Part shown: one piece after another, positions 742-15,660 of the stretch | Numbering within the stretch: the first letter of the stretch is position 1 | Layout of the letters: every line of letters begins with the position of its first letter | DNA from: Coptis chinensis | Lineage: Eukaryota; Streptophyta; Magnoliopsida; Ranunculales; Ranunculaceae | Direction: 5' to 3' | Length of the DNA: 64,000 nt | Assembly: GCA_015680905.1 (NCBI GenBank) | Contig: CM027380.1 | Location: 105,677,001-105,741,000, forward strand | Notes under the pieces: model-generated | The model's input: only the letters and a program-made list of their open reading frames with translations | What the model was told of the DNA's origin: nothing | The model's database searches: none | Program-made: the position numbers and the translations under genes

Positions 742-742
<1 letters not shown>

Positions 743-897
743 CTTCTATCTTCTTTCTATCTAATAAAACATGGAAGTGTGGGGCCGAAGAATCCAGATC
801 CAATGTACCGCAATTCGGTTTCAACAAAATATGACTGGCGAAAAAGGCGGCTCAAATTTGGTATGTTGCTTCATTCCACAACATCCGGATCCATGCG

Positions 898-1040
898 ACT
901 TCGACTTTCTTTTTTTCATCTCACAAGAACACTCGACTTTCTCGACTTTCTTCTTCTTGCTTGAACTTTCGACTTTCTTCTTTGCGCTGAACTTTCGACT
1001 TTTCGACTTTCTTCTTGCCCATAACACTTTCGACTTTTCT
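898..1040. repeat. CGACTTTY iteron-like array near the Helitron 5' end
   Basis: Seven copies of CGACTTTC or CGACTTTT start at about 902, 934, 943, 970, 996, 1004 and 1031. Two form close pairs (8-9 bp apart) and the others are spaced 26-32 bp. The intervening sequence is pyrimidine-rich. It may be a simple minisatellite. Its place about 150 bp inside the proposed 5' end also fits a protein-binding repeat, but nothing here proves that. Confidence 0.6.
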
Positions 1041-1600
1041 TATCACAAGATCATCATCTCCCGGTGGTATTTTCCTCTCTCGGTTCTTCACCGGTTTTAG
1101 TTCAGCATTAGTCATTTTTTGCCTTTTTATTTTTTGTTTTTTAGTTGGCACATTACTTAGTAGTAGTTTTAAAACTCCAAAGGAACAACCTTTTCCACCA
1201 TTCCCCATCAACATAATCCACTTTGTGGTAATGGGTAGAGTTTCATAAAGAAGGGGATGGGCCGGATGGTTATGGCCAAGTTGTAAAAACAAACAGAGTC
1301 GTGTTTGGCTGCATGGGTTCTATGGTTAAGTACTTAAGTAATGGTGTGGTTGTTAACAATCATTGACTTGAATCATAACACAGATTGTTGTATTCAAATT
1401 GTTTGACAAAATGGCTTCTTCCTAAATGTTGAGTGGATGGAAAGCAAGTTGAAATGATTCTTGCATTGCTATAATAGTTTATGTTAGGGTTGCTATCTTT
1501 TTAAATTTTGTATGTATTATCTTGTGGTTTAGCTTTTGTACAGGACTTGAGTTTCATAGAACATGCTATCTTTTATCTTTTTTCTTACAGGACTTGTGTT
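1041..1600. other. Non-coding stretch inside the Helitron
   Basis: AT-rich sequence with no recognisable gene. From about 1,570 it shares words such as TTACAGGACTTG with 8,520-8,560, marking the start of the FRIENDLY-derived direct repeat. Confidence 0.4.
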
Positions 1601-1608
1601 TTTCTTAC

Positions 1609-1782
1609 AGGACTTAAGAAGTTTTTTCCTCACTCACAGCTCTATGAAACCGCTTACTCGAGGCATCACTCCATTTGAGTGTTTGAGAATCGGGACTTCG
1701 TAGAAGCTAGGGATCTTGTGGAAACGGGGAAAGTTCGGTTGGCGGTTTTTTTTTTTTGGTGTTTCATCCTCTCGAGCCAATT
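1609..1782 (+). pseudogene. FRIENDLY (CLU-type) exon fragment, copy 1
   Basis: This stretch is a direct repeat of 8,590-8,764 at roughly 90% identity by eye. One frame reads EARDLVETGKVRLA, which resembles the segment just before the tetratricopeptide repeats of plant FRIENDLY/CLUSTERED MITOCHONDRIA proteins (mitochondrial distribution). It lies upstream of the Helitron replicase, whereas the second copy lies downstream. It is a lone fragment: no further FRIENDLY exon follows before the replicase. Confidence 0.6.
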
Positions 1783-3856
1783 CGACGATTTTGAACCAAA
1801 GCTTTCCTTCTTCAAATGGTGGACATTCGGCGTTTTCTTTGGGACACTCTTTGCTAACACCATCCTACGTATGTACAAGACAATGTGGGTTGGAGCGTCG
1901 GCTATGGGCTTACAAAATTTGGGTGACAATTTCAATATTAATCTTTTTAGTTGGAACACCATTCTATAGACACAAGGTACCCTTGGGAGTCCCTTTACCG
2001 GTATATGCGGGTGTTGGTTCTTTGCTATAAGGAAATGGATGATACATTCCAAGTGATCCAAAAGAACTTTATGAGCTTGACATGGCTGAATATGCTAAAA
2101 AGCGTATACGGGATTGATTCCACACCTTCTTTGAGGTTAGTTTTTCTACTGCCAGGTTTTTTCTTACTAATGGATAACATACCGAACATAATAAAAAGCA
2201 TAAAATGAATTCAAACTTGGACAAGTCCGACTTGATTCAACTAACTTAGCAACTTGACTTGGTATATCAATTACTAATCGTCGATACTTCTATTATAGAT
2301 CAAATATAGTGTCGACTAGACTTGACGAATGTGTTTTGTAGATCAAATATAGTGTCAACTTGACTTGGCAATTTAATGTGTCGACAAACTATGAAGTGCA
2401 CCTTGACGAATGTGTTTTGTATTTTTCAGAGCTTTTCGATATCAAAACAACAGTTAAAGCCGACTTTCTATGGTTCCATGGTAGTGCGTGCCAAGATATC
2501 GCCACGCCCATTGCAAAGTCCAAACTTCCATTTCATTTGTTTATCTTTTTATATTTTACAGGATCGCATGGATAAGGGTAAACGCCCAATGGACCCTTCT
2601 AAGGATCAATCAAACAAGAAAAACAAATTTTTGTTCGGTCCAAGATAAACTCTTCCTCCAACCACCTACTCCTCGGCGACACGCCGGCTCCCGGGTAATC
2701 CTATCACTGGCTCCAATAAATGCTTATGTTGTCCGTTCATTATCATTTCTTTTGAACCGCTTATTTGGTTTATATAGCTTCCGACGCGACCAATTCTCAA
2801 CAAAGGGAAACGCCCTTTGGACCCTTTTTAACAAAGCAACAAAGAAATAGCCCCCCAAGATAGGCTCAATCTTCAACCGCCTCTTGGCTTTTCGGTATTT
2901 CTTGCCGACTATTGTATTTATTTCCCCACTTACGTTCTTTTTGTTTATTACCATTTCTTGCTTTATTCATATCCTTCGGTCCACATTTTTTAAAAATTAT
3001 GACTACCATTTCTTGCTTTATTCATATCTAATTTATTCCTCTTTCTCCCCATCCGTCTACTTACTTAAGAGAACAACCCCTTTCTCCGACAAAGAGGTAG
3101 AACTAACAAAAGCAATACTAGGACAACAGTGCTTTCGAAGGGAAAGAGAAAGGATCACTAAAGAGAAAGGCATTTCAAACTTCGCCAACCGAGGTGTACA
3201 AGCACTCACAGCGTCGTCATTAGCCACCGGTGATAGGTTCAAAGATTAAATGCCTCTCCTTCACTTCCACGAACTCCATCTAAATCTAACGGGCGGCGAA
3301 AGCACAAAGTACTACTGATTACACCTCATGCGACACCATGCGGGGCGCCTTTCTTCTTCTCGAGTCTCTTCAGAAATCTCTATCGTTCCTTAATCCTCGT
3401 CGGGGTTGTTTACGCTCCCGAAGAACATGTCGCATCGAGTGCCCATGTTGATTCAATAAATCAAAACAATGAGATCTTCGTTAACGCAGACTCACCAAAA
3501 TGCAAAGGTTAGTACGGGGTTCAATGCACCTTTCTCTTGGTTCTTCCGGTTTACATTTTAAAAAAAACTATAATATTCTTCTACATTCTTTGCGGTCTTG
3601 TAATTTGCATGTCTACTACCTCATCATTAGTCCATACAATACCACTTCGTCAAATGCACTTCAACTTCGCGATCATCATCAACTACCGAAATTCACGGTA
3701 TACTTCTTCACATTTATTAAAACAAGAATACAAAAAATTAGCTCCTTTGTCTAAATAATTCTTTCCTCATACGAGACCACAACCATTTGGAGATCCCTCC
3801 GATCTTGTGAGGATATTCACCGTAATGGTTTTGACCGTCCATTTACGCTGCTAATA
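1783..3856 (+). other. Helitron region upstream of the replicase, no clear gene
   Basis: No intact reading frame is recognised. The word TTGACGAATGTGTTTTGTA occurs twice, at 2,323 and 2,402. Two diverged copies of a segment translating to KGKRPMDP and KGKRPLDP, followed by similar asparagine- and lysine-rich stretches, lie at about 2,570-2,660 and 2,800-2,890. They may be remains of a duplicated N-terminal part of the Helitron protein. Confidence 0.4.
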
Positions 3857-6800
3857 ATGCCGACATCGGTGATGATGAAGACGGTCGACAATATTCTGGC
3901 GACCGTCCCGATTGAACAAGGAAGACACTCCTTAGGGAGAATGGATGTTCAATGCCCATTTTGTAATGCACTCCATTGGATGGATGAGCGGCTAACCAAA
4001 TCATCATTATCACATCCTCGATTTGGGACTTGTCGTTTTGCAAGGAAAGTCAAATTGCCTCCACTACGACCATTACCACCGGCTCTTAAAGCTCTATATG
4101 ATGGAAATGATCGCAAGTCAAAGTCATTTCGCAAAGTACATGAGGCAATACAATCAAGCTTTTGCATTTACGAGCCTTGGAGGAAACGGCGTGTGTTTAT
4201 TGGACGAGGTCCACGACCTTTACTATCCACGGTCAATTTGCGTCATGGAATTTGGAGCTCTAATTCGACTTTGGTGCATCCAACTTACTCTCAACTTTAC
4301 ATATATGATCCCGTCTGCATTGGAGTTACGTCAACTTCGTAATCGGGTTTGAACACGGATGTTCTTAAAATCATTCATGAAACTATGCTCCGGTATAATC
4401 ATTTTCTCGCTATTTTCCGCCATGCATACGATGTTCTTAGATCGCCTCTCTTGACCATGGTGATAACTTCAACATCCCTGCGTATTTGCATTCGGATTGC
4501 TACTAGAGGCGGACGTCGTTACAATTTGCCAACATGAGATGAGATTCTTTGTCATTTTACGGGGATGGCGTGAACGGGAAGCATGCGAGATATTGTCATC
4601 TATCTTAAAGGAGGGCAAGAATTCATGCAAATTAGTGAATGTCATCCAGCTTACTTGCCTTTGCATTATGTGCTAATGTTTCCTTCAGGAGATCTTGGGT
4701 GGTCACCTGATATGAGACGTTCAAACAGTTTAACTGCAGCAGCCACTAATGACCGATTGACACAGATGGATTTCTATTCTTATCGGTTGTTTGAGGCATA
4801 CGGAGAATATTACGCAATCTTATGAGGGCACAAAACTGTTCCCAAGAGTTTGTGGTTGATGGGTGGGCAGTGACTGAACAAAACAAAATGAGATATTACA
4901 GGCAACAACAAGACAAGCTTTGGGCCGAACTTTATCAAGGTATCACTGATGTCGCAGCTGAAGCTTTCGACCCAAACCAAATAGGAAGACGAGTGGTCTT
5001 ACCAGCATCTTGTGTCGGCAGCCCAAGGCACATGTTCGAAATTTTTCAAGATTCCATGGCCATCACGCGTTACAATAAGCATCCTGATATATTTCTCACT
5101 ATGACTGCAAACCCACACTGGGAGGAAGTTATTGATGCATTGTCTACGCACCAAACCGCAACTCATCGGCTTGAGGTGGTGGCCCGTGTCTTTGAACTAA
5201 AGCGAAGGGCCTTGATGAAGGAAATTAAAAAAAAAAAGGTGTGCTTTGGTAATGCGGTTGCACATGTCTACACCATTGAGTTTCAAAAACGGGTTGCCAC
5301 ATATGCATGCACTTATATATCTTCAACATTCGACAAGATCCGCGTACTGCCGGGTTGATCGCATTGTATGTGCAGAGTTTCACGATCCGGAAGTTTAACC
5401 CGATTTGTTTGGACCGTCCTCACATGTATGGTTCATGGTCCATGTGGACTAAAAATCCTAACTCTCAGGTGCATGGTAAATGGTCAATGCAAGCATCACT
5501 ACCGGACTTTTGCGGATGTTACCACCATGGATAAAGATGGATATCCCATCTACCGTCGCATTGACAATGGTAGATCATATATTAATGAGAGGGCATACAG
5601 TTGATAATAGGGATGTTGTTCCTTATAATCCTTATCTTTCTAAAATGTTCAACCGCCACATTAATGTCGAAGTTTGTCTTTGGGATCCGTTGTGTTAAAT
5701 ACATTCACAAGTATATATTTAAAGGGCATGACAGACAACAATGGTGTCTGATGACTTGGATGAGATCCAACAATACTTGGATGCGAGATACATTGGACCC
5801 CGAAGTTTGTTTGGAGGTTGTTAAGTTTCCATCTGCACGAGGAGATTCCCACGGTTATGCGCTTGGCACTTCATCTCCCCGAATGCACCACGTAGTTTAT
5901 AAAGCGATTTAATCGGTAAATGATATACTATCAAAGAGTCGAAGCATCGAAGTCAACTTTATTTGCCTTCTTTGAGTGTTGTGCATCAGATCCAAGAGCA
6001 AGCAACCTCACTTATCAAGAGTTCCCGGAATACTACGTCTAGAACAAACAATCACAGACTTGGACATACAGAAGACAAGAAGGAAGATTTGCTATTGGTA
6101 GAATGTATTTTGCCAGTCCCTAACTCCGGTGGCGATTTTACTTGCGGCTTACTTCTCACGCGGTTGTAAAAGGACCCCATTCATTTGATGATCGAAGAGG
6201 ATTGGAAATGGTCCGCCACTTCCAACTTTCAAAGATGCCTGTTGTTGCGCGGACTTCTGGAGGATGACAGTGAATGGGTGCAATGTCTACAAGAGGCTGC
6301 AATTATGCAAACTGGATATCATCTTCGCCGACTATTTTGTGTTATTCTCGCAGAGTGCAATCCTTTGCAACCCCATACACTGTGGCATGATTTACGGAAA
6401 AATATATGTGATGACCTTCCACACAAGCTTTCGCGACACTATTCAACATTCAAGAACCTACCCCCTTCTTTGAAGTGCAAGATTACGGTTTATTTCTCTT
6501 AAATGAGATTCTAATAGAGTCGGGTAAATCACTAGCTAATTTCCCTCCGATGCCGATGCCTCGTTAACTACCGGATGGAACTTAGTACATTTGCAAATCG
6601 TCTCATATATGACCAACGGCAATTTCAGTTTGACCCCTCAAAATGAAAAAGCACATAGCAATGGGGTACTCCTTAATGCGAGCAAAATTCTCGTGATAAA
6701 GCGTTGATAGATTCGGTTTCCAAAGATGAAGGGAAGCTATTTTTTTTAATGGAGCGTGCGGGAACAGGGCAAAACTTTTGTCTACAACACAAATCGCCGC

Positions 6801-7864
6801 TCAATTGTCGTCTTTGAGGGCATATTGTTATTATGGTTGCTTCATCGGAATAGCTTCATTATTGGCGGGTGGTCGATGACTCACTCAACTTTTCGCGATC
6901 CCAATAGATAGTCTTGATACCTCGTTTGTGGGTTCAAGAAGAATTCAATACATGCGAATTATTCGGGGAAGCTAAACTTATTATTTGGGATGAAGTCCCA
7001 ATGCAAAACAAGTTCTGTGTGGAGGCAGTTGATCGGACACTCCGGGATACTCGCGACAATAATAAACCTTTCGGTGGAATAACAGTGGTGCTTGGTGGTG
7101 ATTTCCGTCAATGTCTTCCAGTTATACCCAAAGGGGTTCGGGAACAGATTGTGCGTACTTCCTTGCGCTCTTCCTTCCTCTGGAATCACATTCATGTTCT
7201 AACTCTTGCCCAGAACATGCGATTGGAAAATGGAAACTCTGCAAATATTGCGTTTGCAAGTTTCTTAATGGAGGTACCAAACTTTGCATTTTCCTTTCTA
7301 CTATTTTCCTTCATTCTAATATTCATTTGCATCCTTCTGTGTACTATTTTTATTCGTACTAATATCATTACTATTTTCTCCTTGCCACGCTTAGATAGGA
7401 ACTGACCCAAGCGAGACAGTTGAACTACCCTCCACAATTCGACGATGTGCAAATCTTCAAGATCTTATTTCTACTACATATCCTCAGCTTGATCAAGCTT
7501 CCATTGTTACACCTGAATATTTAACTGATCGCACAATTTTATCAGCACGCAATGATGATGTCAACGACATTAATGCAACTGCTTTAAATATGTTCCCAGG
7601 GGAAAGCACTCTCTTTCTAGCTGCAGACAAGATGACAGACGAGGATGCAACCAATCCAGCCAATATTAATCAATGACTATAAATAAGTCACAAGGACAAT
7701 CAGTGAAATATGTGGGAATTGACCTTCGCACTGAAGTTTTCAGTCATGGTCAATTATATGTTGCCCTATCAAGGTGCACTTCTTCAGACAGAATCAGTAT
7801 TCTGCTCCCTCCAAATTCGGGAAATCATACCCCAAACTTTGTATACCCAGAAGTCTTACTATAA
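3857..7864 (+). pseudogene. Helitron Rep/PIF1-helicase protein (broken)
   Basis: In order along the strand: a cysteine-containing N-terminal motif CPFCNALHWMDERL near 3,950; the long Helitron-helicase-like block (RYNKHPDIFLTMTANPHW near 5,070); the HUH nuclease motif GLPHMHALIYL at 5,291-5,323; and the tyrosine-bearing KYIHKYIFKGHDR at 5,695-5,733. The PIF1-type helicase follows: a damaged Walker A near 6,755-6,790, Walker [10 protein letters not shown] at 6,976-7,002, and GGDFRQ near 7,100. An intron probably spans 7,274-7,394. The C-terminal INKSQGQS and [12 protein letters not shown] lie at 7,680-7,780. The usual stretch before INKSQGQ is missing, an internal deletion of perhaps 60 or more residues. 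Frame changes occur at several points, for example just before the HUH motif, so no full protein can be made. In a live element this protein would nick, unwind and re-join the element's single strand. Confidence 0.93.
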
Positions 7865-8195
7865 TTCGTAAGTTCTTTTCCCATTTACTTTGAGTAGTTT
7901 CTCATTTATTTCATGGTCATCAAATTTATATATTTGTATTGGCTCTGACTTGGTTAATGTGCTTCATTCTATTTATGTAGTTCTGCGACTTGGAGTGTAT
8001 TTCCATTTTGTCCGTTTCTGTGCTGGAGACTTATCCGGTGTGTTCCTTCCCTTTTCTATGTTGAAGTGCCCTTTTTATGTTACTGACTTACTGTTCTTAT
8101 TTGTCATTCTTTTATTATTGCAGGTTTGACTGTGCAAGATTTTTGAGCAAAAAAATGGAATTTTGGGAGCCTTTCTCATTAGGAAATTTTCCTTT
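7865..8195 (+). other. 3' flank of the Helitron replicase
   Basis: AT-rich sequence with no gene recognised. It looks like an intron or untranslated tail of the replicase gene, including a splice-acceptor-like TTATTGCAG at about 8,115-8,124. Confidence 0.35.
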
Positions 8196-8341
8196 TGGAG
8201 ATTTATGGTTTTTTTCATCGAGTGACTGAAGTTTTGAATTCTCAGATGATGGAATTTTCTTTATTTTTGGTACTTGAAACTTTTATGCTGCTAGGAATCA
8301 ATATGTAGTTTGATACTGCTAGGAGTCAATATGTAGTTTGT
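8196..8341 (+). repeat. First copy of an ILR3-intron-like piece
   Basis: 8,196-8,280 matches 12,275-12,355, the sequence directly before the ILR3-like last exon, over about 80 bp with few differences (both contain GTGACTGAAGTTTTGAATTC). Here no coding exon follows. Instead a tandem pair of TGCTAGGARTCAATATGTAG occurs at 8,288-8,341. It supports two head-to-tail units within the Helitron. Confidence 0.7.
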
Positions 8342-8589
8342 TTATTTCTGTTGTTTCTACTTTTCTCGATGGAGATTATGATATCCCAAGGTTCACTTTT
8401 ATTTTTTTTTTGTTGCGGTGAATTTATGATTCCAGAAGTTACCGTGTTTTCATCCAAATAATGAGGTTTTCCTTGATATGCCGCCTAAAGCATAATACTA
8501 GCATCTGATGTGATTTCATAAGCTTTACAGGACTTGAGCTTTTACAGGAGGCTTGTGAGTTGTGTCATGCCTAGGAGAAGAAAACCAGG

Positions 8590-9524
8590 ATAGCTATTAA
8601 GAAGTTTTTTCCTCACTCACAGCTCTATGAAACCGCTACTCAGGCATCACTCCATTTGAGTGTTTCACGAATCAGGACTTGTAGAAGCTAGGGATCTTGT
8701 GGAAACGGGGAAAGTTTGGTTGGCTGAGGTATTTTTTTTTTGTGTTTCATCCTCTCTGAGCCAAGCTAGGGACTTCCCGTAGAGATTTCCTTTTTGTTTT
8801 ATTAGATAGATTGGTGAATGCTATGTTCTGCTCTGGGAATTGTTTAAGGGAATGCTTAATGGGCTTACACTTTGTCTGGCCATTGCATTTTCCATACCGC
8901 AAGTATGCTCTTTCCATATACCCACATTTCATGGTTTCCATTTTCTTTTTCCCTTTTTAAGCATCACTTTTTAGTGCTACCAACACAATAATTTAACTGC
9001 TCTGTGCTTCTGTTTGACTGCGGGTGCAGGTTACTGGTTCCATCCATCGAGAGGTTGCAAATTGCTGCCGGTAATTACTATTTATATATTGACTTTTCTC
9101 CCTTCTTATATACCCCTTGGTTTCTTTTTCTGTTATCACATATCTGTTGGGTGGATGAGACATCTATTGTTCTTCCTTACCAACTATCTTAGTGGTACCA
9201 TAATATTTTTTCTGAATTTTCTTTGAAAACTAAGGTCTCATCGTCAATGCAAAAGATTGTCCATTTATTATCTTTTCTGTGCGACTCTTGCATTGACGAG
9301 TTTTTTAACTGAAAACATAATGTAGTGAGTAGATCTGGTATTTATAGTGTCTGTAATTTTTTTATGTGCTGAGTGTTGATAATGTAATTTTTCTTTCATT
9401 AGGTACCTTGCAATGGTTCTATATCATGCTGGAGACATGGCAAGAGCAATAATGCAGCAGCTCAAAGAACTTATCATAAATGACCGCAGCCTCGGATTGG
9501 ACCAGCCAGATACTGCTCACATGT
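8590..9524 (+). pseudogene. FRIENDLY (CLU-type) exon fragments, copy 2
   Basis: Three exon pieces are in order. One ends at 8,728 with EARDLVETGKVWLAE and a GT donor. A second at 9,030-9,070 encodes VTGSIHREVANCC and ends in a split arginine codon. A third starts at 9,403 and encodes YLAMVLYHAGDMARAI, then LKELIINDRSLGLDQPDTAH. These match the tetratricopeptide region of plant FRIENDLY, a cytosolic protein needed for normal mitochondrial spacing. Introns keep their GT/AG borders, so the capture was at DNA level. Only this C-terminal region is present, and it is cut off in the third exon where the STELLO fragment begins. FRIENDLY sequence resumes at 11,999. Confidence 0.85.
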
Positions 9525-9639
9525 ACCAATTAATCTGTCAATCCCCTCATAATAATAGTTGTAGAAGGGAAAACTCCTCCATAAAGCAGCACACAAAGAG
9601 CTTTCAGATTCCTTATTTAACGTTCACATTGGAATTGGG

Positions 9640-11936
9640 TAGGCCCCGGGCGACTATTGGTCATGGAGATCGGATACTGCATTAGAGTGGAGACTACTTT
9701 ATGGCAGGATATTTAAAACTGTGATTATTCTATCTGAGCAGAGCAATTCAGAGCTTGCTGTTGAGCGTGGCCAATTGGAGCAAGCATACAAGTAAGTTCT
9801 CACTATAGTACTTGTTCTTTGATGTGTATATACAGTATCAAAATAGTGGCTACACTATTCAGTTAGGTTTAATATAAGTCAAATTCTGGGAAGTTTTGAC
9901 GTATAACAATCTCTTACATTATTCTTTCAGGATTGTACATTGTAGTGCTCTTATTTCTTGCTGATCTTTTGATTTTGAAAAGTTTAGGTGCTTTTATGTG
10001 TTTATTAACCAGCCAATACTCGTCATTCCTCAAAAGCCCAAATAGTCAAAGGAGCAGAATGCTAAATACTTAACCTAGGATCCTAACATTTCATCGTGAC
10101 TTCCTCGTTGACAGGACTGTATCAACACTAACCTGATGGTAGTCCTATACTCATATGTACTCCTATCAGTACTCATTGACTTAGTGCAAAGGCCATGCAT
10201 GGTACCAAGCCGTTTTAGTCCAGCCTATAGACCCCCCTCTCAAGACATGAACCTTGAACAAGGGATTGGATCCAATACCAGATGCTAAGATTTAGAAGTT
10301 ACAGTATAAGCATGACATCTTTTCATAGGGTCCAAAGAAGCTTTACAATCGAATAACATAGAATTAGATTAAGTGAGTCTCCAACTGAAAGTTTATGTAG
10401 AGGTCACTTAATAGGCAAACATTGAGGCTTGATTGTCCTTAAGTGGATTGCTGTAGATTTAAACCCATTTTGCACACAGTTGTGGAGGGATTTGGCAAGA
10501 AACTGCATTCATAAAAGAGGGAGTACCTATTAAAGAGCACCTACTCCTAGCCTTCTCATCTATTTTTGTTGTTTATGCTTGCCTGAGACATATGTTAAGT
10601 TCATTGCAAGTACTTTTTTATGTGGGTTGACTTAACGACCACAAGAGATTCCACCTTTCAGACCGTCTTTCATTCTTGTTAGCGTGCGGTTTAATAGCCT
10701 GTTTACTGTAGTGCTGTATGATGTCTAACCTATCAAACCAATTCCAACATGCTTTACTGCTGATACTTGATAGTGATAGAAGTGAAAAGCATAACATAAA
10801 ATGGCTATGTTATAGTTACTCTTACACATTGAGGATTTCTTGGACGTGTACCTGAATGTAATGCTACTGTTATTTTTTCGAAGGTGGCTTCAGTGTACTG
10901 CTTCTTTAGTTTTAGTTTTTTTTTTATTTTTTTCCTTTTGTTCTTTTTCTTTTTTTTGCTGTGTGCTGTTTAGGGTGTGTGTGTGGGACTGTGGGGGGGA
11001 TCTGGGCCTGTTTTGGGTGTGGTTGAGTGCGTTTGTGGGCGTGTGTGTGTGTAATGCTACTTTATACTTGTTTTCTTGGCTGAAGGTGTGAACAACTCCC
11101 TCACCATCTGTTTATTTAGTAATGCACCAAATCTTTAGAAATCTTTACTTCTCGAAAACAAGGCACCTGAGTGATACATAGTGTGGCATAAAGTTGGCAG
11201 TTTGACTTGACTTCAGTACTCCACCAATGCTACTTTTCTTCTAATGACATAGTTGTTATTGGATCTTACAGATATCTGCCCAAGAAATTTGACCGGTATA
11301 CAAGTGCAGAAAGATTCCTATTCCTCCAAGATGACACCATTCTTAACTATTGGAATCTACTACCAGCGGACAAGAATAAGCTATGGATTGCAGACCAGGT
11401 ATTAAAGTCTTAGACTCTTAGTAAACACTAAATGGTGTGACACATGTGATGAATATTTTTTATCTAACTTTTTGTTCTATCAGGTCTCCAACTCTTGGTT
11501 CGCTGTTCCTACAAGAGGGAACGACCCAGCATGGTTTTCAAGTCAGGCAAATAAGATGGTGAAGAAAGTAGTGAATACAATGCCAGCTCATTTTCAGGTC
11601 AGTTACAAGGAAAATGGCCCCGCCAAAAACAGCCTAATTCTCTGCAGTTCTGATGTTTTCTATGTTCCCCGACGCTTTTTGGGGGACTTCAAAGATCGGG
11701 TTGGTCTGGTGGGAAATTTAGAGATCCATCACAAGTTTGCCATACCCATGTTCTTTTTGGCCATGGATTCACCGCCTCACTTTGACTCCGTGTTCAATAA
11801 AATGATCTATCGGACAGATATTCCTTCCAAAAACTCTTCAAGCATTTATTCGGCTCTAGCACCCGCTGTGCATCCATGGAGTGTGGCTAATGAGCCTGAT
11901 TTCATAAAGCTGGTTAGAATCATGGCAGAAGGTGAC
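9640..11936 (+). pseudogene. STELLO (DUF288) gene fragment inside FRIENDLY exons
   Basis: Exon pieces: about 9,688-9,791 (YGRIFKTVIILSEQ, then ELAVERGQLEQAYK), 11,272-11,398 (YLPKKFDRYTSAERFLFLQD) and 11,484-11,936 (KKVVNTMPAHFQVSYKENG, SSDVFYVPRRFLGDF, YSALAPAVHPWSV, DFIKLVRIMAEGDP). These match the C-terminal half of STELLO proteins, Golgi glycosyltransferase-like factors that assist cellulose synthase assembly in Arabidopsis. Splice sites are intact and the first intron is about 1.5 kb with long T- and GT-rich tracts. The fragment replaces the junction between two FRIENDLY exons and reads in the same direction. It lacks the N-terminal membrane anchor and the stop of the parent gene, so it cannot make a working STELLO. 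Confidence 0.88.
9792..11271 (+). other. Long intron of the captured STELLO fragment
   Basis: It begins GTAAGTTCTC and ends TCTTACAG. It holds no coding sequence I recognise. 10,900-11,060 is dominated by T runs and GT-rich simple sequence. Confidence 0.7.
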
Positions 11937-11998
11937 CCTTTCAGATTATTGTTGGCTTGTGTATGTGTGTCACTGAATAACTGGTTTCATTGTTACAG

Positions 11999-12276
11999 CT
12001 ATGGCAATATGGCTCTCTTCTATCCTGGTCTAAACCAAACGGAGCTCGCTCTACGGCATATGCCCCGTGACATTGCTCCTACAAAGTTTATCATGTGGTC
12101 CTGATCATCCTGACGTGGCTGCAACTTTCATAAATGTAGCTATGATGTACAAGGACATAGGAAAGATGAATACAGCTCTTCGTTATTTGCAAGAAGCCTT
12201 AAAAAAGAATGAGCGCCTTCTTGGTGAGGAGCATATTCAGACCGCTGTATGCAATCATGCTTTGGCCATGCTATCA
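11999..12276 (+). pseudogene. FRIENDLY (CLU-type) exon fragment, continued
   Basis: After an acceptor (TTACAG at 11,993-11,998) the sequence reads SYGNMALFYPGLNQTELALR and then, in another frame, CGPDHPDVAATFINVAMM, DIGKMNTALRYLQEALKKN and ERLLGEEHIQTAVC. This is the most conserved tetratricopeptide stretch of FRIENDLY. A frame change lies near 12,060-12,090. Upstream, the STELLO frame reads through the apparent intron into the first residues, giving one open frame 11,484-12,104 that joins the two genes. The exon is cut off after NHALAM, where the ILR3-like sequence begins. Confidence 0.85.
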
Positions 12277-12619
12277 GCATATTTATGGTTTTTTTAATCA
12301 AGTGACTGAAGTTTTGAATTCTTGGATGATGGAATTTTCTTTATTTATGGTTTTGGCACTTTGTTTATGTAGTCCGAGAAAAATGAGCTTCGTGATGAGA
12401 AGCAAAGGCTGAAAGCAGAGAAAGAGAAGCTGGAACAGCAAGTTAAAGCCATGACTTCTCAGCCAAGCTTCATGCCTCACCCTTCTGCCATTCCAACTGC
12501 ATTTGCTCCCCAAGCTGATGCCATTCATCGGCTACCCTGGAGTTTCCATGTGGCAATTCATGCCACCTGCAGCAGTTGATGCCTCACAGGATCATGTTCT
12601 TTGCCCTCGGGTTGCTTAA
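12277..12619 (+). pseudogene. ILR3-like bHLH last exon with upstream intron sequence
   Basis: 12,277-12,372 is intron-like and repeats 8,196-8,280. The exon 12,373-12,619 begins after TTATGTAG and encodes EKNELRDEKQRLKAEKEKLE, then QPSFMPHPSAIPTAF, and after a frame change GYPGVSMWQFMPPAAVD and SQDHVLCPRVA plus stop. This is the leucine-zipper and C-terminal tail of ILR3/bHLH105-type factors (iron and auxin-conjugate responses). The DNA-binding basic helix-loop-helix exon is absent, so it is a fragment only. The stop codon and what seems to be 3' flank are retained. Confidence 0.88.
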
Positions 12620-13542
12620 AATGGCATTCTTCAATGACTATGTTAATTGTTATCTGTGTGACTGTTAATTGTTGACTATGTTAATTGTTTAAAGTCAAAT
12701 ACTTGATTAGTGGATGATGACTGCTATTAAAAATGGTTGAACTCCTATTTTAGTTTTTGGGTTTATGTGGATCATTTGTAAATGCTAATAAGGAGATTTT
12801 GACTTCAGTTATTGGGTATTGACATCTTTTGGAATTTTTCAGCAAAAAAGGACATCTTTTGGAACCATCTACAACTAATTTGTTACTGAGTGGTTTTGGA
12901 GTAGGCGAGTAGTCTGATACTCAGATGTGTTGCTCCCTTTCTATCTCTGTTTTAGGAGCATCTTCATTTGTATATTTTGGCATAGAGCAGTCTGACATAT
13001 GCCCTACAGTCACAAAGTTTCCGTATAAACTTCACTTCACAAACATCAGAGAAATGTTTTTATTCCCATATGAACATTATTTTGCTTCACATAACCTTTT
13101 CTGCTTGGTACATAACCTTTTGTTGTTTGTGATGACTTGGTACATAGTTCATGAACAATGGAGATCAAGTAATAATGGCAGTGAATGCATATGCATTTGA
13201 ATTTGCTAAACCGGAATATATAAACCTTCTTTGACAGTCTTCGTTGTCTCACGCCAAAGCCTTTAAAAACATGATTTTATAAGATTGCAAAGAGCATCTA
13301 CATCGGACTCCAAACAACGAGAATCAAATAGAATGTAAACGATTATGAAACACCTAAACCAAAACATTTTATTCGAAAAGCAATTGCACCTTATCTGTTA
13401 GGAACTGACCACTCAAGTCACCTCTGCTTATTCTTCTTTTTCTTTCGATAATCAAGTTACCAAGTAATGTTTTGGTGTAAATATGTACATGGGCATGCAA
13501 AGGTACTAGGTAGCGTGCGTTGAAGGCATGGCGAGTTGTTCA
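12620..13542 (+). other. 3' part of the Helitron, no gene
   Basis: AT-rich sequence, probably the captured 3' flank of the bHLH gene followed by element sequence. Nothing coding was recognised. Near 13,490 it becomes GC-richer towards the terminal palindrome. Confidence 0.5.
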
Positions 13543-13569
13543 GTGCCGTACGGCACGGGCAAACCCTAG
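13543..13569 (+). repeat. Helitron 3' terminal palindrome and CTAG end
   Basis: GTGCCGTACGGCAC (13,543-13,556) is its own reverse complement. After a nine-base spacer comes CTAG (13,566-13,569), followed by T. A hairpin about ten bases before CTRR is the diagnostic Helitron terminator, which defines the end of strand transfer. Confidence 0.88.
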
Positions 13570-13570
13570 T

Positions 13571-14204
13571 ATCTAACAAAACAGGGAGGAGTGGGAGGAC
13601 ATATTCCACGTCATAAGGTGAGACGTGGTCGACACACCCCCTAACCATAACCACTCAAAACTCATAGAGGGTGAATTAAAAAGTTTTTATAGGGTGAGTT
13701 AAACAGTTTTTCTCACCTTACCCACCCCACACAAAAAAGTTAATATTTGACAAAATTTTTATGGGTTGAATCTTTTATGGGCTTGGAACCATGAGCATGG
13801 GCTCAATTAAAAAAAAATGGTAATAGTGGGGGTAGGCATCCAAAAATCAGGCAAAAGGCTGGACTTATAAACTGTTGAGCCTCCAAATTTGACATGATAC
13901 TGTACAATTGGCTGACCCAATTGATGTTATTGGGCTTATGGATAATGGGCATTTGGGCTGGCCTTGCGCCGCTGACGAGTTGTTTCGCGCCAAAGGCGCT
14001 CATACATTTTACCGGAAAGGCGTGACGAAGTTGTTTAAGTACCAAAGGCGCTGGCCGGCCTTGTGCTTAGCGACATGTTGTTTCGCGGTGGAAGGCGCTG
14101 CGTTCGCATCGCCAGTATGCCTTGCGCCGAAGGCACAACGAGTTGTCGGGTAGCACGACAGGCACGTTGAGGTCTCACGGGCCGTAGGCACGGGTATACC
14201 CTAG
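13571..14204 (+). mobile_element. Second Helitron-like unit or tail ending in CTAG
   Basis: It starts with ATCTAACAAAACAGGGAG, similar to ATCTAATAAAACATGGAAG at 759-777 inside the main element's 5' end. It ends with an imperfect hairpin (ACGGGCCGTAGGCACGGG, about 14,177-14,194), a short spacer, CTAG at 14,201-14,204 and then TAATAG. Between 13,960 and 14,165 there are several GC-rich near-palindromes such as GCGCCAAAGGCGC. It may be a small non-autonomous Helitron joined head to tail with the first, or the original end of one longer element. Confidence 0.55.
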
Positions 14205-15240
14205 TAATAGATAAAGCAAAAGATATGATAACTATCAGCTTAGGGATAAAAGTTCCGTAAGTAAATAGATAAGTTTCAACCCTTGTTTTTCGGGGAGAAA
14301 AAAAAAAAAGGTATTCTTTGGTAGAGTTTTTGGGGAAAAACACAGCGAGAGTTTTATAGAGAGGAAAGAAAAAAAAAATAGGGGGGTTTTACTGACAGCA
14401 GAAAAAGAAGATTTTTCTGATAGCTGGTTGATAGTCGGAGCGCACTAAAGGTGAGTAGATACCTTCAACGATATAAAAGATTACACTTTGAAATCTTTAA
14501 AACACTGTTTTATTGTTGGATCATTGTTTTTTTTTGTCGACTATAAAATTATTGGAAATTTGGTTGTATACGCATGTAGCATGTATTGTTTTGAACTAAA
14601 TGGTCTAACCAGAGAAAAACTAAACTTATAACGCAGAACAGATATACTGCAACTTCGTCGTCTGATATCGATGGAAGGTTGAAGACTTTATCTTTTGTTT
14701 AACCATGAATGGAGTCGAGTATTTCATTGTTCTTAGATTAAATCAAAACTTGTTGTGAGTGTAAACTGTTTTCATTGATGTCTGAGGAATTCTATATCTT
14801 TGAATTGTTTCTGAAGATTGAATTGAATGGTGGTTGTGGTAGATTTTAATTGGTTGTTAGTGTCGCGAGTTTGGGGCTGTTGAAGCTCGGGAGGAGCAGC
14901 AATGGCGTCCTGAGTTTTGGTGGTTTGAATTATTGTTTTAGTTTGAATTTGGTTGTGAGATTGTTGTTGGGTTGAGATGGATTGTTGGTGGTTGATTGGG
15001 TGCTGGAGAGGGGACGATTGAAGCTTTACAGAGTGTTAATAGCAAAAAAAACGATTTTTCACAGTATAAGGGAATCACGAATTGTTGGTATAGGTACATG
15101 GGGTTTTTCTCCAGGAGTCAAACCCGTGGATTTTATATTGGAGATAGATGGCCGGTGGTGGCTGCTGTAGTGGTGGAGGCACCGTGAGGAAGAGGAAGAA
15201 GAAGAACGTCCTGTTCTTTTTTTTTTTTTGGCTGTTGGGC
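14205..15240. other. Gene-free stretch
   Basis: AT-rich with G- and A-runs near 14,300-14,390. Short open frames at 14,980-15,190 resemble no family I know. No gene is called. Confidence 0.4.
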
Positions 15241-15243
15241 TTA

Positions 15244-15545
15244 GGCTGAGTCCAATGGCTCCCTATCCCTTTAAAAGTAGTGCTAAAGTCAATAAAGTAG
15301 AGCTAAAGTCAACAAAATAGAGTTAAAGCTAGTCAACATATTTTACTCTCTATATTTATTTTTCTATGTATATATACAAAGGATTCTACTCTCTATCTCT
15401 ATTTTACTCTCTCTATATATAGAGAGTAAAATAGAGATAGAGAGTAGAATCCTTTGTATATATAAAGAGGAAATTAATGATAGAGAGTAAAATCTGTTGA
15501 CTTTAGCTCTACTTTTAAAGGGATAAGGAGCCATTGGACTCAGCC
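15244..15545. mobile_element. Tourist-like MITE with long hairpin
   Basis: Terminal inverted repeats of nearly 40 bp begin GGCTGAGTCCAATGGCTCC and end with the complement. They are flanked by TTA at 15,241-15,243 and 15,546-15,548, the target duplication typical of PIF/Harbinger elements. The centre (about 15,369-15,463) is a near-perfect palindrome, with arms around TCTACTCTCTATCTC and an eight-base loop, so the whole 302-bp element can fold into one stem. Confidence 0.88.
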
Positions 15546-15660
15546 TTAGGCCGATATAAATGGGTGGGCTTGAACTTTTTTTTAAATTTTCATTTTTGGC
15601 CTTAAGTTTAGACTTTGGGCCTTAGTCTCTGGGCTTTTGGGTTAGACGAGTTTAGGTCTA

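Follow-up and report, generated by a model that had tools for sequence, protein, structure and literature searches.

Before-and-after copies of a Coptis chinensis Helitron family point to stepwise uptake of host gene fragments by internal break repair

We propose, with a probability of roughly 0.8, that copies of a Helitron family in Coptis chinensis gained host gene fragments stepwise through the repair of internal breaks and then transposed. The genome contains copies that lack the fragments, copies that hold them and copies that have lost fragments again; element sequence flanks the fragments and runs on to the same 3' end. A single genome thereby preserves what preceded and what followed each of four uptakes, as well as one loss that left a scar and the single parent loci. 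The window, that is, the whole stretch of 64,000 nucleotides that was analysed, corresponds to C4:105,677,001-105,741,000, and the genome searched comprises 935.6 Mb in 116 contigs.

Judged by its Rep and PIF1-type helicase domains, its TC and CTAG ends, its palindrome and its A/T insertion, the window element is a member of a rolling-circle Helitron family. This element, copy A, extends on the + strand from the shared 5' TCTATCTAATAAAAC at 756 to CTAG at 13569, limits that are set by copy-to-copy matches with differing flanks. Its replication initiator/helicase region (3755-8035, + strand) is broken, with Pfam matches at 4795-5355 (Helitron_like_N, PF14214, E 9.2e-42) and 6908-7402 (PIF1 helicase, PF05970, E 7.4e-37) only, and the replicase is split over several broken frames, which agrees with the replicase relic described in a sequence-only reading of this DNA. 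About 290 bp are missing at 7666-7674 of copy A, between 9-bp repeats, and are retained in copies B, C, N and O. Comparison of the copies delimits a 3' region (13117-13569, + strand) in which the palindrome GTGCCGTACGGCAC stands shortly before CTAG; in copy O the palindrome is altered. The same reading had placed the 3' end at 13569, which proved exact. The CTAG end is shared by other insertions, being followed by T and by differing flanks in 14 of the 16 copies (A to M, plus O), and in copies N and P the sequence stops short of it. Where the end is kept, the matches of other copies reach a right limit corresponding to 13570-13580 of the window, and there the flanks differ.

The 5' end had been put at 742, a position that holds only if a TC-rich extension specific to copy A (742-755, preceded by A) is counted as part of the element. 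The end common to the family is TCTATCTAATAAAAC at 756 (the 5' ends of the 15 other copies were read; that of B ends in G), and most matches of other copies to copy A begin at 756-758, those of B, F and O beginning at 753, 747 and 744. An A immediately precedes TCTATC in 11 of 16 copies (B, D, E, F, G, I, J, K, L, M and N). Copy O has a TC-rich 5' extension shorter than that of copy A, copy P starts with a repeat of TCTATCTAA with an A in front, the 5' end of copy C is ambiguous, and that of copy H adjoins the CTAG of another Helitron.

A second, short Helitron (13570-14205) adjoins the first head to tail, and its 5' end, TATCTAACAAAAC, follows directly after CTAG and is without the usual TC. 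Copy H (L071) has a similar TC-less junction at its 5' end, as do two other loci (L086 and L091); a further locus (L087) has the full TC and another (L088) a longer TC-rich form. Farther to the right lies a MITE-like foldback element (15237-15552) in which 56-nt inverted arms (93%) surround a palindrome with 86-nt arms (91%). A genome count of CTAG+T16 gave 342 places versus 70 for the backward-read pattern, and we set it aside as uninformative on this Helitron.

The family, defined by FRIENDLY and/or ILR3 pieces, has at least 16 copies, labelled A (window) to P; this count is a lower bound, since the best 40 of 71 candidates were scored in one search and the best 40 of 361 in another. Uninterrupted insertion sites were sought by joining, for each of 13 copies, the host flanks of the two sides and scoring the best 40 of 2,627 candidates, the joins of copies C and H being imprecise, with 5' flanks cut by a loose pattern. 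Among the matches listed, such a site was found elsewhere in the genome for five of the 13 joins: B (99% across the join), D (200 of 200 bases), E (94%), L (99% and 98%) and M (best 96%). When one uninterrupted site was aligned for each of these copies, those of B, D, E and M were exact at the A/T join and that of L had one extra T. For copy A, whose right flank is another Helitron, no uninterrupted site occurred among the matches listed. Insertion thus took place between A and T with no target duplication (of the 16 copies, 11 have A before the 5' end and 14 have T after CTAG), and Helraiser is reportedly also partial to A/T targets. As read from these flanks and sites, assembled gene packages were inserted into A/T positions.

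All captured fragments lie on the + strand, the strand of the replicase, and retain introns, as the sequence-only reading had stated. That reading recognized FRIENDLY, STELLO and ILR3-type pieces, all of which we find, and missed a fourth, the fragment of a PTR2-family transporter. Sequence matches trace the four to source genes on four other contigs, namely C7 (FRIENDLY), C8 (STELLO), C9 (ILR3-type) and C6 (transporter). Because they lie on different contigs, the parents do not stand side by side in this genome, and a pre-existing cluster in the captured order is not present here.

The FRIENDLY capture comprises a left half (8683-9624, + strand) and a right half (11938-12269, + strand), both of which match the same stretch, in the TPR part, of a CLU-type gene on C7; the Pfam search places TPR_12 within 12034-12288 (E 1.6e-16). 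This gene is presumably FRIENDLY. A CLU family search of the genome gave three matches, all at one place on C7 and hence a single gene. The stretch that was captured (L025) is on their strand and 3' of them. We also considered FRIENDLY-like loci at 85-88% as parents and dropped them, as the CLU search returned one gene (C7) and these loci resemble one another beyond the gene. They constitute a second repeat family with a larger FRIENDLY piece (L027, L028, L029, L030, L032, L035 and L036), 85-88% identical to the window over 8683-9624 and 87-91% identical to the gene, with common non-gene sequence on the left and other right-hand sequence in three of them (L030, L035 and L036). This second family is perhaps an independent capture by another element. 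To the left of the FRIENDLY piece, genome matches define an 88-bp border piece (8595-8682, + strand) for which no source was found outside the Helitron family, all 25 of its 25 genome matches being family copies. The notion that the repeated segment 8597-8764 is FRIENDLY throughout was dropped, as similarity to the gene begins at 8683 and the preceding 88 bp are confined to the family.

STELLO (9625-11939, + strand, with introns) does not lie beside FRIENDLY; it is nested within a FRIENDLY intron. It matches its parent on C8 at 100% over 9626-9674 and at 97.9% over 9675-11939 and lacks 148 bp of the parent between these two pieces, at 9674/9675. The single genome match to the STELLO family lies on C8, within an open stretch of 539 aa continuing into the captured exon. 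In the Pfam search the frame 11406-12104 gave only a weak, irrelevant zinc-finger match, and its identity comes from the parent gene. Frame reading showed that this frame (+ strand) runs from the last STELLO exon through the FRIENDLY intron into the FRIENDLY TPR exon, the border having removed the STELLO stop and the reading continuing in frame through 20 codons of intron. Copies B, D and E likewise have an open frame across the junction, E with a stop within the STELLO part.

The ILR3-type piece (12354-13105, + strand) is the last exon of a bHLH gene plus following sequence. It matches C9:66,936,596-66,937,521 in two pieces, 12354-12883 and 12906-13105, and at about 12883-12906 it lacks 154 bp that the parent has. 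The parent is presumably ILR3-type, its upstream exons matching PF00010 and bHLH_IRO3 weakly and below the cut-offs; the parent loci on C7, C8 and C9 otherwise bear out the gene identities given earlier. The transporter fragment (1777-2324, + strand) derives from a gene at about 27,229,000-27,230,230 on C6, a PTR2 member of the POT family (E 8.3e-47 and 7.7e-44), to which it is 88% identical in the window and 92% over 1,254 columns in copy L. Pfam searches of 12373-12573 (ILR3) and 1704-2027 (transporter), the latter the one frame covered in 756-3754, identified neither piece, and here too the identities come from the parent genes.

The states preceding the captures are preserved. Five relatives that lack these fragments (L057, L059, L060, L061 and L062), read as 3.3-kb stretches, have the sequence corresponding to 8061-8594 and that from 13117 onward to the 3' end, separated by 157-162 bp; L059 holds 8061-8594 in two pieces. 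In the family, these 157-162 bp are replaced by the 88-bp piece, FRIENDLY, a 71-bp self copy and ILR3. Self-comparison shows that the 71-bp filler (12281-12351, + strand) is 93% identical to the element's own 8201-8271 (+ strand; sequence D1), the likely donor, which occurs once in the stretches of the five capture-free relatives. Four copies (M, N, O and P) hold FRIENDLY and ILR3 and have neither transporter nor STELLO. Seven (F-L) also carry the transporter, a piece of 1.2 kb in L, within FRIENDLY near 8765, together with a second, shortened border-plus-transporter segment near the 5' end, and five (A-E) carry STELLO.

The 5' segment is itself a duplication. Its left junction in copy A (1534-1613, + strand), as read by eye, resembles about 8521-8596 with small inserts, and copy comparison identifies 1614-1780 (+ strand) as a second copy of the FRIENDLY-border segment 8597-8764. 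In copies N, O, P and M (L094-L097), the earliest stage, 1534 is followed by about 66 bp and then by about 2411. These 66 bp or so were replaced by the duplication, with AGCT shared on the left. In copy C a piece corresponding to 9273-11461 lies inverted within the 5' transporter copy.

The site of the inner transporter is clean in all four of the earliest copies (M, N, O and P) and in the FRIENDLY gene, and the insert shares CCA and TTC with it at its borders. In copies A, B and C the clean site is replaced at 8761-8776 by CCAAGCTAGGGACTTC. Because the end of this sequence equals the right end of the transporter insert, which is seen in six of the seven copies that hold the insert, we conclude that the inner transporter was once present in A, B and C and was then lost; the scar is CTAGGGACTTC at 8766-8776 (+ strand), the last bases of which are shared with the site. 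An earlier view of ours, that A, B and C never had an inner transporter, was dropped once the scar was found. Copies D and E are deletion derivatives without the 8761-8776 stretch.

The STELLO site can be read straight through in the FRIENDLY gene and in nine of the 11 STELLO-free copies, those that were printed. STELLO replaced nine bases of the FRIENDLY intron (GTATACTAG in seven of nine), with CT shared on the right and one extra base on the left; copy G has the same 9-bp spacing and copy M is deleted there. Copy D retains 28 STELLO bases to the left of 9675 that are absent from A, B and C, and the 148-bp deletion of A, B and C is therefore later or separate. At the right border of the FRIENDLY/ILR3 package, CTTTTG is shared with the ILR3 gene. 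Across the six borders compared (both of STELLO, both of the inner transporter, the right one of ILR3 and the left one of the 5' duplication), zero to six bases are shared, as raw counts without chance expectation. What is found is thus a set of internal borders with short shared sequence, local loss of bases and relatives in the pre-capture state, as is expected of filler-DNA capture.

A tree of the 16 copies over 11938-13569, rooted at its midpoint, places M-P on one side of a branch (99/97) and F, H, I, J and L in another group (100/100), with G and K joining M-P (100/100 for the six). The three copy groups need three changes on this tree, against a mean of 7.5 after shuffling, and as low a number was reached in none of 200 shuffles. 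Copies A-E lie together near the midpoint root, at a cost of two changes by parsimony and of one change in 15% of bootstrap trees. The monophyly of the STELLO copies is not firm in the tree; we argue for a single STELLO event because its insertion borders are shared. Rooted on M-P, a root of our choosing, the tree is compatible with the transporter and STELLO each having been gained once and the inner transporter having been lost. Gaps aside, STELLO differs from the gene at 30 of 2,268 aligned columns in copy A and at 22 of 2,263 in copy B. The small number of mismatches in copy A suggests that the last uptake was recent, about one million years ago at a substitution rate near 7e-9 per site and year.

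We suggest that every fragment came in during the repair of a break within a copy, with another locus as the template, probably through synthesis-dependent filler DNA with template switching, and that the altered copy would then have transposed by the usual Helitron route. First, FRIENDLY and ILR3, jointly or separately, would have replaced about 160 bp between 8594 and 13117, along with the 71-bp self filler. The transporter fragment may then have entered the FRIENDLY intron, after which the FRIENDLY-border/transporter segment would have been copied to the 5' region. Loss of the inner transporter, leaving its scar, and entry of STELLO into the FRIENDLY intron would follow, in either order. 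Finally, in copy C, the 5' transporter piece would have received an inverted copy of a FRIENDLY-STELLO piece. Filler-DNA repair fits this series because the sites are internal, the losses small, the shared sequences short, one filler self-derived and the secondary copying inverted. The claim that a Helitron moved the fragments is supported by the copies, their common ends and the dispersed parents, with two amendments: the source genes number four instead of three, and capture proceeded in nested steps.

Recombination or gene conversion between copies could lie behind the 5' duplication and the mosaic appearance of copy A, which we consider improbable, if less so than the readings that follow. 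Copies A and B are 98% identical over 8560-12660, 86% over 753-1780 and 92% in the replicase, with H and I at 94% there. The drop in the 5' and replicase parts (753-7674) reflects either recombination between copies or unpolished assembly, so that part of the divergence may not be biological, and small indels between copies may likewise be assembly errors. Such exchange leaves the first entry of host genes unexplained.

A variant of internal break repair, in which Rep itself cuts at a cryptic internal CTAG and repair from other loci then captures genes, seems quite unlikely to us, slightly more so than recombination. At two of the four acquisition sites the right-hand break of the pre-capture sequence can be placed just after CTAG, 0-2 bases past it for STELLO and 1-7 for FRIENDLY/ILR3 according to how shared bases are assigned, and the adjacent CTAG is present in seven of nine printed pre-STELLO copies and in four of five relatives at the FRIENDLY/ILR3 site. 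A binomial calculation based on the local density of CTAG, counting the two as lying within 0-2 bases, yields about 0.002 over eight borders, a value framed after the pattern was seen and with the favorable placing of the breaks. At the other two acquisition sites there is no CTAG at the break.

It is less likely still that the fragments were acquired by 3' read-through, in which the end is overrun, downstream host DNA is taken along with a new end, and an end of the old type is regained by recombination. This route has been demonstrated experimentally for Helraiser (PMC4778049). In the present family, element sequence lies on both sides of the fragments, and 13117-13569 is the same in the five fragment-free relatives. 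The transporter and STELLO sit inside a captured gene with few bases replaced, and the sites for the transporter entry, the 5' duplication and the STELLO entry are clean in other copies. Read-through does not predict this pattern, because the uptakes are internal and the 3' region is unchanged.

We give very little credence to the idea that the fragments were brought in by other transposons inserting into the element, such as a small Helitron or MULE with STELLO. A second repeat family with a FRIENDLY piece does exist in the genome (seven fetched loci), but the gene is at least as close to that family as the Helitron's own FRIENDLY piece. At the STELLO and transporter borders, which coincide with gene sequence, we saw no transposon ends, terminal motifs or target duplications, and element bases were lost. 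A pseudogene cluster or segmental duplication without a Helitron, for which we found no supporting point, can be dismissed given at least 16 copies with common ends, differing flanks and uninterrupted sites for five, exact in B, D, E and M.

We favor internal break repair, and this reading bears on a debated matter, as gene uptake by Helitrons has been attributed both to 3' read-through and to internal-break repair (PMC6544945). The word filler is absent from the main text of a 2026 review (PMC13317346), and we found no literature on a Helitron with STELLO among open-licence papers. The family resembles Helraiser in its Rep/helicase, 5' TC, 3' CTAG and a hairpin near the 3' end; unlike Helraiser, for which PMC4778049 describes capture by 3' read-through, its captures are internal. 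Hel1A of Spodoptera frugiperda made stepwise internal acquisitions with 2-13 bp junctions to the source loci, which were read as filler DNA (PMC6544945). Stepwise internal acquisition and short end junctions are common to both, whereas the insect element acquired short regions and the present, replicase-bearing elements took up multi-exon pieces of up to 2.3 kb.

The closest parallel is in maize, where, according to PMC3288121, ZmhelA3, ZmhelA4 and helitron_mc1 captured genes stepwise and the putatively autonomous ZmhelA1 contains eight predicted gene fragments. As in those Helitrons, a Rep/helicase element gained several fragments stepwise, copies differ in their fragment sets, and there has been internal loss. 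Unlike the maize elements as described there, the present family preserves pre-capture sequence at four sites and single parent loci, shows one capture nested in a captured intron, and includes a lost fragment with its scar. Stepwise capture has thus already been published for maize and moth, and what is new here is an unusually complete and legible record, in which the borders are legible to the single base and an order of events can be proposed because the before and after states and the single parents have been kept.
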